DNA from: Lachnospiraceae bacterium
GTDB lineage: Bacteria; Bacillota; Clostridia; Lachnospirales; Lachnospiraceae
DNA: 34,487 nt
Assembly: GCA_030540075.1 (NCBI GenBank)
Contig: JAUNWX010000023.1
Span: 1-34,487 of the forward strand
Direction of reading: 5' to 3'
Part shown: in pieces, positions 5,171 to 31,158 of the stretch
How the letters are laid out: each line of letters begins with the position of its first letter
How positions within the stretch are numbered: the first letter of the stretch is position 1
Translations under genes and position numbers: made by a program
Notes under the pieces: generated by a model
Databases searched by the model: none
What the model was told of the DNA's origin: nothing
Seen by the model: the letters and a program-made list of their open reading frames with translations, nothing else

Positions 5171-5242
5171 AATATTCCTCCATGATTTCAGGGTGGTATT
5201 TTCAACCTGCGTTTACTATACTACTTCACGTAAGGGGATTCT

Positions 5243-5592
5243 CGCAATACAGAGTTTTTCACATGTCATGACATTATAAAATTTCCAAAGTTATACAATA
5301 TGGGTGTTTTAAGGATGAGTGACATTAAGTCATTTTTACAAAAGTGTGGATTTAAAAAGATATGACATTATGTATTTCACAGATTAAGACATTTCAGAGA
5401 TGATGACATTAACTATATGGAGTGGATTTTCGCAATACACTTAACTTTTTCTGGTGTGACATTATCTGACCTAATGTCACTGGAAGCGGAAACCGGCAGT
5501 TTGTTACAAAACTTAAAAAATCTAATGTCATCGGGGCAGTCAAACAGTGAATTGCGAAAAAATTCCCGATGCTCAAAGAAAATCTAATGTCA
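5243..5592. repeat. Repeat array 1: TGACATTA words with 94-nt period, second half inverted
   Basis: TGACATTA occurs in direct orientation at 5269, 5320, 5363, 5404 and 5457, and as its complement CTAATGTCA at 5471, 5522 and 5584. Spacings 51 and 43 alternate at the start, giving exact 94-nt steps (5269, 5363, 5457). CGCAATAC recurs at 5243 and 5431, which is 188 nt or two periods. Related cores (GTGGATTT at 5346 and 5422, TTGCGAAAAA near 5553) lie between the words. The array fills the divergent gap between the pfkB-type kinase and abgA. I see no gene in it. It is homologous to array 2. Confidence 0.85.
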
Positions 5593-5652
5593 TACGCTAA
5601 GAAAGCCCGGATATTGCGTCAAACACAGTGCCGAGGAGGCCGGCGCGCAGGA

Positions 5653-13197: not shown

Positions 13198-13237
13198 GAA
13201 ATGGGTGATGATCACATGATCATCACCCATTTGCTTT
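13198..13237. terminator. Bidirectional terminator between potC and the dinB operon
   Basis: A 15-bp perfect stem (13198-13212 with 13218-13232) closes a small loop. T-rich sequence follows on the plus side, and ATTTCCGATTCTTG lies on the minus side. The stop codon of the minus-strand 104-residue gene lies inside the hairpin. Confidence 0.75.
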
Positions 13238-20732: not shown

Positions 20733-20875
20733 GGATAATATTGTGAATACTCATATTTGTCAAGAAAAATGGAAAGGCAGATGATGAAAGGCAGACGGTG
20801 AAAATAGCTGTGACCCAAATAGCTGTGAGTCATGAAAAAGGGAAGATTTCACAGATTGTAGATTTTCAGGCGCTC

Positions 20876-21530
20876 TGCCATTAGATTTTCTGGAGTTTGT
20901 AACAGACGGGCGGTTTCTGGAATTTGTGACATTAGGTGGCTTTCGCAAAGAGTGGATTTTGAAGGGCGATGCCATTAGATTTTCTGGAGTTTGTAACAGA
21001 AGGGGCGATTCGGGACTTCGTGACATTAAGTGACTTTTACAAATCGTGGATTTCGGGGAGGTGTGCCATTAGGTTATTTCACAGAAAGGGAAATATTCAG
21101 AGCTGTGACATTAAGTATCTGGCTTAGAGGTGGGAATAAGCGGTGATTTACGAAGAAAAGTCTGGGCGGAGATAAAGTCACAGCTTCTGAAAATGGCGGT
21201 TTTGCGTCAAAAACCGGGATTTTACTCGGGTGGCGCAGGACGCGAGTGACGTGACTTAATGTCACAGGCTCGCCAGAAGAGGAAAATGCGAAAAAGCCTA
21301 ATGGCATATGATCGAGGGAAGGCTGGTTTGTGAAAAAGTCGGGCGACGGCAGCCAGACGAAATCAGAGGGAGAGTGATGACTGTGAAATATCTAATGGCA
21401 TACGAGCGAGATAAGGCTGGTTTGTGAAAAAGCCGGGCGACTATGGCCGTCCGGGATCAAGGGTGAGAGAGGCGACTGGATATATCTAATGGCTTCCAAT
21501 CGAGAAAAGGCTGGTTTGCGAAAATGTCGG
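20876..21530. repeat. Repeat array 2: TG(A/C)CATTA words with 94-nt period, second half inverted
   Basis: In the direct half, TGCCATTA at 20876, 20970 and 21064 (exact 94-nt steps) alternates with TGACATTA at 20927, 21021 and 21106. The 31 bases at 20876-20906 and 20970-21000 are identical. In the inverted half, TTAATGTCA is at 21256, and CTAATGGC at 21298, 21392 and 21486 (exact 94-nt steps), each followed by AGGCTGGTTTG(T/C)GAAAA. The centre is near 21180. No gene is visible between 20569 and 21899; this array and the citF leader fill the gap. Sequence and spacing match array 1. Confidence 0.88.
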
Positions 21531-21646
21531 GTAGCCGGAGAGCATCTGGGATGCATTCCATCGGTTCATGTTTATGCATGATGCTTTTCCATCGTTCAGG
21601 CTTCGGTGTCGGCGTTTCTGGTGTGGAGACTGTGGCGTGCAGATGC

Positions 21647-21652
21647 TATAAT
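21647..21652 (+). promoter_or_regulatory. Extended -10 promoter of citF
   Basis: A consensus TATAAT preceded by TGC (extended -10). A weak -35 (TGGAGA, 21624-21629) lies at 17-nt spacing. It would give a leader of about 240 nt before citF. Confidence 0.55.
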
Positions 21653-25599: not shown

Positions 25600-25609
25600 G
25601 TTACTGTTC
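25600..25609 (+). repeat. GTTACTGTTC dispersed decamer, copy 2
   Basis: An exact copy of the decamer also found at 44, 26317 and 29919. It lies 28 nt after a terminator at the left edge of a non-coding stretch that ends in a toxin-antitoxin locus. Confidence 0.5.
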
Positions 25610-25646
25610 GGGCAAGGCGATGTCTTCATCCTCGTTTGATTTTTAT

Positions 25647-25763
25647 GAGACGTCTATGCCGAGCGTCTCTTTTTGTTTGTTTGCCCACCCCATTCGACTG
25701 CCTTTATCTGTTTACATATCGGTCCCGCCCCGTGCAAACAAACAAAAAAATCGACGATTTTTT
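25647..25763. other. Nested inverted repeats, terminator-like
   Basis: GAGACG/CGTCTC followed by TTTTTG (25647-25675) is a terminator-like hairpin. TTTTTGTTTGTTTGC (25670-25684) is the perfect complement of 25734-25748, and AAAAAATCG/CGATTTTTT (25745-25763) forms a further hairpin. No convincing gene is present. Confidence 0.5.
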
Positions 25764-25827
25764 CTTTGCGCGCGGCCCGGAAATTCTTACTGGCGAACTG
25801 GGTGAAATAGATGAAGATGGATGGCAC

Positions 25828-26227
25828 TATCCAATAACCAGTTGTTTTCGAAATCGTGGATATTTTTAACACCATCTATCATTTTTGTGTACGGAGCTAA
25901 ACTATCTAAGATTTTCAAATAGGGCACTTATTGGATAGTTTTCTGCGAAATCAGGCATACGCATATAAGCGTACTATCGAATAATCCTCGCTTTTTTAAA
26001 TGGTGGATATGTATTTCTGACTTCAGAGACGAGTTTCTTTCGGCTGATATCCAATAAAACTTCTTTTTTTAAATACTGGATATGCGAGCCCGGATTCCTC
26101 TTAGGAAATAAGGCTATTCGTATCCAGTATTTTTGAAATCGCCTAACAGTGGATAGTTTGCAGCCACCTGTCATGCTTACAGTCAAAAAACATATCCAGT
26201 ATTTTTATAATCAAACCATATTGGATA
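25828..26227. repeat. Repeat array 3: six 35-nt inverted-repeat units at 72-75-nt intervals
   Basis: Units begin with TATC(C/T/G)A(A/G)TA-like words at 25828, 25903, 25975, 26048, 26121 and 26193. Each ends in TGGATA exactly 35 nt from its start (25862, 25937, 26009, 26082, 26155, 26227). Unit starts are 75, 72, 73, 73 and 72 nt apart. Only the ends are conserved; unit interiors and the 37-40-nt spacers differ. The core TTTTCGAAATCGTGGAT in unit 1 resembles the cores of arrays 1 and 2. No gene is seen from 25501 to 26458. Confidence 0.85.
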
Positions 26228-26246
26228 GGAACGCCAGGGGCTACGA

Positions 26247-26286
26247 AGGGGCGGCAACGGAATACTGTTCCTACGTTGCCGCCCCT
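26247..26286. other. 13-bp G/C-rich hairpin
   Basis: AGGGGCGGCAACG (26247-26259) pairs perfectly with 26274-26286; the loop contains ATACTGTTCC, close to the dispersed decamer. No T tract follows. Confidence 0.55.
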
Positions 26287-26316
26287 CCGGCTCCTGCCTG
26301 AATCCGGTTGACGATG

Positions 26317-26326
26317 GAACAGTAAC
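26317..26326 (-). repeat. GTTACTGTTC dispersed decamer, copy 3
   Basis: GAACAGTAAC on the plus strand. A near copy (GGACAGTAAT) follows at 26331. It lies immediately upstream of the hicAB operator region. Confidence 0.5.
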
Positions 26327-26342
26327 GTTTGGACAGTAATAT

Positions 26343-26395
26343 GCGCGCGGATGCAACTATATTTAGTTGCATCCGCGCGCTTGAAAGTATATACT
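26343..26395 (+). promoter_or_regulatory. hicAB promoter with perfect 17-bp palindrome (candidate operator)
   Basis: TTGCAT (26367-26372), 17-nt spacer, TATACT (26390-26395). The -35 lies in the right arm of a perfect inverted repeat: 26343-26359 pairs with 26364-26380 around a 4-nt centre. HicB antitoxins with a ribbon-helix-helix domain usually bind palindromes over their own promoter, so this is the natural operator. Confidence 0.6.
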
Positions 26396-29928: not shown

Positions 29929-29935
29929 GGTCGTA

Positions 29936-29964
29936 GCTCGGCGGACGGCTGCCGTCCGCCGAGC
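29936..29964. other. Perfect 13-bp hairpin
   Basis: GCTCGGCGGACGG pairs with CCGTCCGCCGAGC around the 3-nt loop CTG, with no T tract. An 11-nt tandem repeat (CCAGGGATCTG twice) lies at 29884-29905. I see no gene from 29683 to 30181. Confidence 0.6.
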
Positions 29965-30121
29965 CACGACTTGAATTAACTACATCTGAACTGTAGCAAG
30001 CGGAAAACGCTGGTGCATTGGAGAGATCTATTAAAGATGTCGCTTTCTGAAATTTAATATATACAAGGGCAGACACTTGAGCGAAAATGTACGAAATGAA
30101 AACTCTATACTTTAGATCACG

Positions 30122-31124: not shown

Positions 31125-31158
31125 CAGAAGAGCTGTCGCATGTGCGACAGCTCTTCTG
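31125..31158. terminator. Bidirectional terminator between fic and the SGNH-like gene
   Basis: CAGAAGAGCTGTCGCA (31125-31140) pairs perfectly with 31143-31158 around a 2-nt loop. It lies between convergent genes, 2 nt from the minus-strand stop. T tracts are weak on both sides. Confidence 0.75.

Follow-up and report, generated by a model that had tools for sequence, protein, structure and literature searches.

Interspersed repeats in bacteria are commonly attributed to hairpins or to the ends of transposons. The ends of Mu and Tn7 carry repeated inward sites in unequal arms, and IS66 elements habitually make 8-bp target duplications and have ends starting with GTAA. IS21 ends are described as usually containing at least two direct repeats each, and IstA as requiring two complete repeats (PMC10122671). 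The BOX elements of Streptococcus pneumoniae are described as interspersed repeats that are composite, modular and nearly species-restricted (PMC3049150).

The locus described here, array 2, lies in a 34,487-nt stretch of DNA from a Lachnospiraceae bacterium (contig JAUNWX010000023.1; hereafter the window). Our preferred reading, to which we give a probability of about one half, is that array 2 is one instance of an intergenic module present in multiple copies, a putative protein-binding scaffold that has spread partly as the cargo of MITEs.

A sequence-only reading of the window had placed array 2 at 20876–21530. The array is real and is larger than described, spanning 20847–21523. Its unit is a 37-bp bipartite site, TTTYRCAAA-N20-TGNCATTA, in which alignment of the copies places the TTTYRCAAA word 29 bases ahead of TGNCATTA. 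The unit thus consists of a 9-bp word, a T-rich middle and an 8-bp word starting with TG, and is not palindromic; in 87 units with up to three mismatches from the loci examined, the T-rich stretch occupies unit positions 17–20. Six direct copies are followed by one variant inverted copy in the core and then by four inverted copies:

20847–21523: array 2, entire extent; six direct units, core and inverted units
20847–20883, + strand: unit F1, TTTCACAGA-N20-TGCCATTA
20898–20934, + strand: unit F2, preceding linker 14
20941–20977, + strand: unit F3, preceding linker 6
20992–21028, + strand: unit F4, preceding linker 14
21035–21071, + strand: unit F5, preceding linker 6
21077–21113, + strand: unit F6, preceding linker 5
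21173–21209, − strand: core unit, variant words TGACGCAAA-N20-TGACTTTA; same position in seven other arrays of the same plan, including the divergent C6:33090
21257–21293, − strand: inverted unit R1
21299–21335, − strand: inverted unit R2, 42 from R1, mirroring F5–F6
21393–21429, − strand: inverted unit R3, 94 from R2
21487–21523, − strand: inverted unit R4, 94 from R3

The left-arm linkers are therefore 14, 6, 14, 6 and 5, and the alignment of copies shows that the short steps differ solely in the linker between units. As first noticed, the word TGCCATTA recurs at 94-nt intervals (20876, 20970 and 21064), and the 31-nt block at 20876–20906 is repeated exactly at 20970–21000; an alternate word, TGACATTA, stands at 20927, 21021 and 21106. 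The proposed alternation of 51- and 43-nt steps holds for 51, 43, 51, 43, but the final step of the left arm is 42 rather than 43. Similarly, the inverted words are 94 nt apart as claimed, but start one base later than had been given, since a preceding C had been included: TAATGGCA at 21299 and at 21393, with a one-letter variant, TAATGGCT, at 21487. An additional inverted word, TAATGTCA, begins at 21257, and the variant inverted unit at 21173. We rejected array 2 as a coding repeat, since its period of 94 nt is not divisible by three.

The window contains a second member of the same family (family 1):

5240–5621: array 1; direct units at 5240, 5291, 5334, 5375 and 5428, inverted units at 5472, 5523 and 5585

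Array 1 is a looser version, with five direct and three inverted units at steps of 51, 43, 41, 53 and then 51, 62, and it does not have the core of array 2. The homology that had been proposed for the two arrays is borne out: their DNA match is real but weak (76% identity at 5319–5420 and 74% at 5469–5530, reversed), and the 37-bp unit makes the kinship clear. All 19 matches to a unit profile at E ≤ 1 in the window fall within arrays 1 and 2, from whose units the profile was itself partly built.

In the host assembly (93.6% complete, 69 contigs), the unit pattern has 78 matches at up to two mismatches, compared with 2 for a reversed control pattern, and the exact three-word pattern has 12, compared with 0. 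Nine arrays contain 67 of the 78 matches and four more lie at C10:17215, C18:9571 and C29; the remaining seven, isolated matches with two mismatches, are taken for chance. The unit profile (R1), built from 46 units (87 thinned to 50 by removal of near-duplicates, with four more left out), gave 85 matches at E ≤ 1, and its match at C7 (E 0.69) is probably chance. Some units found by the unit scan at three to four mismatches overlap others and are noise. What had been seen as two kindred loci is thus one family, as claimed, but with nine arrays and four small sites:

Window 20847, window 5240, C6:74006, C41:32773 (reversed), C68:1028 (reversed), C64:13594, C66:227, C40:50368 and C6:33090: the nine multi-unit family-1 arrays
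C29:8740–8830: small site, inward-facing pair of units
C18:9571: small site, one good unit and two weak ones
C10:17215: small site, single unit
C46:31: small site, both words present with 26 rather than 20 bases between them (E 0.02)

The isolated units at C10, C18 and C29 retain the internal word distance. At C18:9623–9703, two variant units overlap with a perfect hairpin, AAAAAGGACATTACC/GGTAATGTCCTTTTT, which resembles a two-way terminator.

The half-direct, half-inverted layout, whose conservation had been raised as a question, recurs in all nine multi-unit arrays of the host genome. Eight of them share one plan with identical order and steps, apart from differences of one to two bases in the core or right arm: six direct units at steps of 51, 43, 51, 43 and 42, a variant inverted unit 96–98 further on, and inverted units 84 and then 41–42 beyond it. 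Array 1 is the one that departs from this plan. At C6:33090, the middle inverted unit is too weak to register at four mismatches, although its TGNCATTA word is present, and units R3 and R4 of array 2 have no counterparts in the other arrays scanned. In pairwise BLAST, the copies other than C6:33090 and array 1 are 75–87% identical across 400–900 bases. The gene adjoining C6:33090 (C6:33612–34917) fuses an HTH_3 domain to a nucleotidyltransferase domain, and the next gene beyond it appears similar to an AbiEi-type antitoxin.

C6:33090 is the most divergent copy. With the six direct units in register, array 2 and C6:33090 are equal at 84 of 96 word positions and 40 of 126 spacer positions, and their linkers (14, 6, 14, 6 and 5) are identical. 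The corresponding values are 89/96 and 64/126 for array 2 and C64, and 86/96 and 39/126 for C6:33090 and C64. The word conservation is inflated, since units are recognized by their words, a bias that does not affect the identical linkers and saturated spacers; the argument from a divergent copy depends on this one copy. Because C6:33090 keeps the linkers and words while only 40 of 126 spacer positions agree, words and geometry are, judging from these alignments, the conserved part of family-1 arrays. Conserved words and spacing, set against saturated spacers, point to the geometry of a protein.

Six of the nine family-1 arrays (C6:74006, C41, C68, C64, C66 and C40) lie inside MITE-like elements with ends GTAACAGTTCAGCC. 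Pairwise BLAST revealed that several copies share longer flanks, which constitute modules, the left one ~165 bp and the right one ~126 bp in length, with the GTAACAGTTCAGCC ends. Eight elements of 523–1231 bp have both GTAACAGTTCAGCC-like ends (0–3 mismatches) and thus terminal inverted repeats; among the six family-1 carriers, four have both ends, and C41 and C66 have one clear end, C66 lying at a contig start. The 8-bp flanks of the eight elements agree at 8, 8, 7 and 7 of 8 positions in four and at 3, 3, 1 and 1 in the other four, and none of 56 crossed-flank controls reached 7 of 8. The carrier family makes 8-bp target duplications. Among the family-1 carriers with both ends, C40 alone is duplicated (7 of 8), with C6, C68 and C64 matching at 3, 1 and 3 of 8.

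One MITE-like element lies in the window, 4 kb downstream of array 2, and carries an array of another family (family 2):

25600–26326: MITE-like element; left module 25600–25756 (83% to the C64 copy), ends GTTACTGTTC and GAACAGTAAC
25828–26227: family-2 array of six units, each within one letter of the pattern, at 25828, 25903, 25975, 26048, 26121 and 26193

BLAST found no right module in this element. Its left-module copy has 27 matches in the host genome at E ≤ 0.001, itself included and some of them short. In 299 genomes of the family, the C64 left-module copy matched the host and, over 38 bases, G316 (best two candidates per genome, at which weak copies may be missed). Near array 2 there is neither a left nor a right module, the sole match in the window being 25600–25756. 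Array 1 and C6:33090 also lie outside MITE modules, and BLAST found nothing at C6:33090 that matches the other copies' flanks. Target duplications are not evident at these three arrays: the longest word shared by the 60-base flanks of array 2 is 5 bases, as common in random pairs, and the direct repeats flanking array 1 and C6:33090, also 5 bases each, are no longer than those of random flanks. Two contig-end pieces of the host assembly contain IS66 DDE sequence; they are bounded by GTAAGCGCTCAG, which differs from the carrier ends GTAACAGTTCAGCC, so that IS66 is at most a candidate mobilizer of the carriers. At 93.6% completeness in 69 contigs, the assembly may lack an autonomous element. Self-BLAST of the window also detects near-perfect inverted repeats at 13199–13232, 26343–26380, 29930–29970 and 31125–31158, possibly terminators.

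Three more array families, similar in geometry but with other words, occur in MITE-like elements of this type. Family 2 has the form TATCCA-N23-TGGATA at steps of 72–75, family 3 the form AGGCA-N25-TGCCT (words AGGCAYG and CRTGCCT) at steps of 55–66, and family 4, in both orientations, the form GTTRGCATC-N20-TGATRC (words GTTRGCATC and TGATRCAG) at steps of 64–65:

L034:1335–1555, L093:1906–2126 and L013:6207–6427: family 3, adjoining the right MITE module
L033:3586–3751, L034:11296–11524 and L093:1619–1784: family 4

Often, the left module is followed first by an array of family 4, 2 or 1, then by one of family 3, and finally by the right module. There are departures: the left module at C40:97209 and at C60:2481 adjoins other sequence in which these arrays are lacking, and in C56 a family-4 array is represented by its start alone. 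In all four families, the CA and TG of the two words are 22–25 bases apart, on either side of an A/T-rich middle, and the units follow one another at regular steps in both orientations. For this apparent likeness, the informative parts are the comparison between families and the middle only, as spacing inside a family was set by the search expressions and the palindromic families 2 and 3 were counted on both strands. Because of this shared layout, it is conceivable, although we hold the idea only tentatively and consider it rather doubtful, that the four families are docking platforms for related proteins of differing specificity and are interchangeable cargo of one MITE family. If so, and if related proteins with matching specificities exist, the genome would show a mobile element that carries docking sites as cargo; we know of no description of a modular mobile protein-docking element.

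How far does the family extend? Array 2 had been offered as part of a general element, to be sought in related genomes; it proves general within the host genome but, as far as our searches reach, not within the genus. The exact three-word pattern was present in none of 149 other genomes of the family (host only, 1 of 150) and, with up to two mismatches, in none of 16 congeners (host only, 1 of 17 of the genus); it was also absent from GTDB contigs, a set in which the host records may be missing. In the 16 congeners, the unit profile gave weak matches, 0–4 each with a best E of 0.0212 (150 candidates scored per genome), and the unit pattern at up to two mismatches gave 249 matches compared with 175 for the reversed control, a slight excess. 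BLAST with array 2 against 61 genomes returned the host and one 25-base match in G016 (best nine candidates per genome), and blastn found no member of the family in plasmids or in phages. A looser two-unit pattern had no matches in viral contigs and matched 15 stretches across GTDB contigs, all of which we read, from their word layouts, as outside the array 2 family. Nine are 52-bp head-to-tail repeats of Pisciglobus halotolerans containing TGTCATTA, in which the first word differs and an inverted half is lacking; two are tandem repeats of 49–50 bp in Bacteroidetes; and four are single pairs. The Pisciglobus halotolerans TGTCATTA repeats are dispersed over several contigs and are a separate repeat family. 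A shallow search of the literature gave nothing pointing to these arrays.

Several other explanations can be envisioned. Array 2 might be a small non-autonomous transposon, its arms being ends with multiple inward transposase sites, as in Mu, Tn7 or IS21-type elements. Inward bipartite sites, fixed spacing and unequal arms (six direct units on one side, two to four inverted units and the core unit on the other) all fit such ends, as do the stand-alone arrays, which show that the module can occur outside MITEs. However, six of the nine arrays have the module within an element whose ends are different, and target duplications are not conspicuous at array 2, array 1, C6:33090 or C29. The integrase core (rve, PF00665) has 0 matches in the host genome, an absence that is not final at 93.6% completeness, in a search that was positive in 6 of 14 genomes as a control. 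The congener citF loci offer no reading of an empty site either way, as none has the window's upstream gene or upstream DNA within the up to 1.5 kb covered. We consider a transposon of this kind unlikely. Nor do we find it probable that the array is functionless filler, the interior of an old MITE family, with array 2 a copy whose ends have decayed. Such an origin would suit the six arrays in MITE-like elements, the 75–87% identity over 400–900 bases of all copies except C6:33090 and array 1, and the failure to find the family in the relatives searched. Yet array 2 and C6:33090 combine saturated spacers with conserved words and base-exact linkers, and neutral decay should hit words and spacers equally, unless the copies stem from long-diverged active masters.

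Distinctly less probable is an operator array that regulates the flanking genes, citF and its neighbors. Array 2 is intergenic and ends ~100 bp before a promoter-like site (21624–21652) upstream of citF, one of four such sites where 1.8 are expected. Other copies, however, adjoin unrelated genes, including those for an amidohydrolase and a Polbeta-type nucleotidyltransferase and, from reading the translations, what we take to be ftsY-ylxM and hisH. Moreover, no units are present up to 1.5 kb upstream in 16 citF loci of 15 congeners, of which eight are 79–82% identical to the window citF and the rest more distant. Lowest in probability, in our view, is a BOX- or REP-like element, a hairpin or structured RNA whose inverted halves would pair. 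In its favor, array 2 folds better than shuffled sequences (z −5.5 and −4.5; 25–40 shuffles for each score given here), as do the C29 pair (−3.4, −5.2), families 2–4 (−4.3 to −5.6) and the left MITE module (−6.5, −3.9), and the core contains a terminator-like site at 21197–21216 (two found in the region, 1.2 expected). Against it, array 1 and two other family-1 arrays (L015 and L016) have z-scores of only −0.7 to −2.4, and the half-sites of families 2 and 3 show no more pairing than shuffled ones do (best P 0.197 over six column pairs for each family; 22 units in family 2 and 21 in family 3). Neither the window nor ten loci matched Rfam at the curated threshold; the lone sub-threshold hit, to a microRNA model (E 0.78), is outside array 2. 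Because half-site pairing is lacking in families 2 and 3 and folding is weak in three family-1 arrays, we favor protein half-sites for family 1, against which the folding of array 2 itself speaks.

If array 2 is a protein-binding scaffold, each unit would be bound by a putative DNA-binding protein that touches the two words and the A/T-rich middle, and several such proteins, held at fixed spacing and facing one another across the core, could form one nucleoprotein assembly. Counting against a scaffold, not every step corresponds to an integral number of helical turns (~4.9 for 51, ~4.1 for 43 and ~6.2 for 64–65), and the two words at C46:31 are separated by 26 bases. The modules may have spread mainly as MITE cargo, with stand-alone copies such as array 2 left by older events, the ends from which can no longer be discerned. 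The assembly might aid transposition, or it might shield or organize the local chromosome. Since the modules travel in a mobile element, help to that element would be our first guess. The 37-bp unit is a short, fully specified probe with which to fish out a putative binding protein.

How do the arrays and their carriers compare with known systems? The carrier family is like IS66-type MITEs in its 8-bp duplications and GTAA-starting ends, but the IS66 pieces in this genome are bounded by GTAAGCGCTCAG and the carriers by GTAACAGTTCAGCC. Repeated inward sites and unequal arms are shared with IS21 ends (PMC10122671). Unlike in IS21, Mu and Tn7, the array is not at the element end where boundaries are known, and the genome has no rve match. 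BIME/REP clusters likewise have regular units in both orientations and are extragenic, mosaic and reported to bind protein (PMC2817692). REP units, however, are imperfect palindromes in alternating orientation, usually in more than 100 copies, whereas the family-1 unit is not palindromic, its orientation switches a single time if the core is set aside, and the loci found number 13. The likeness to BOX lies in a variable tandem array set between end modules, and in the presence of terminal inverted repeats as well as target duplications (PMC3049150). BOX elements differ in measuring 67–637 bp and having a predicted RNA fold. To our knowledge, they do not contain bipartite 37-bp sites. The system described here, in contrast to BOX, has base-exact inward-facing arrays, four word families, and an array that also occurs outside the element.
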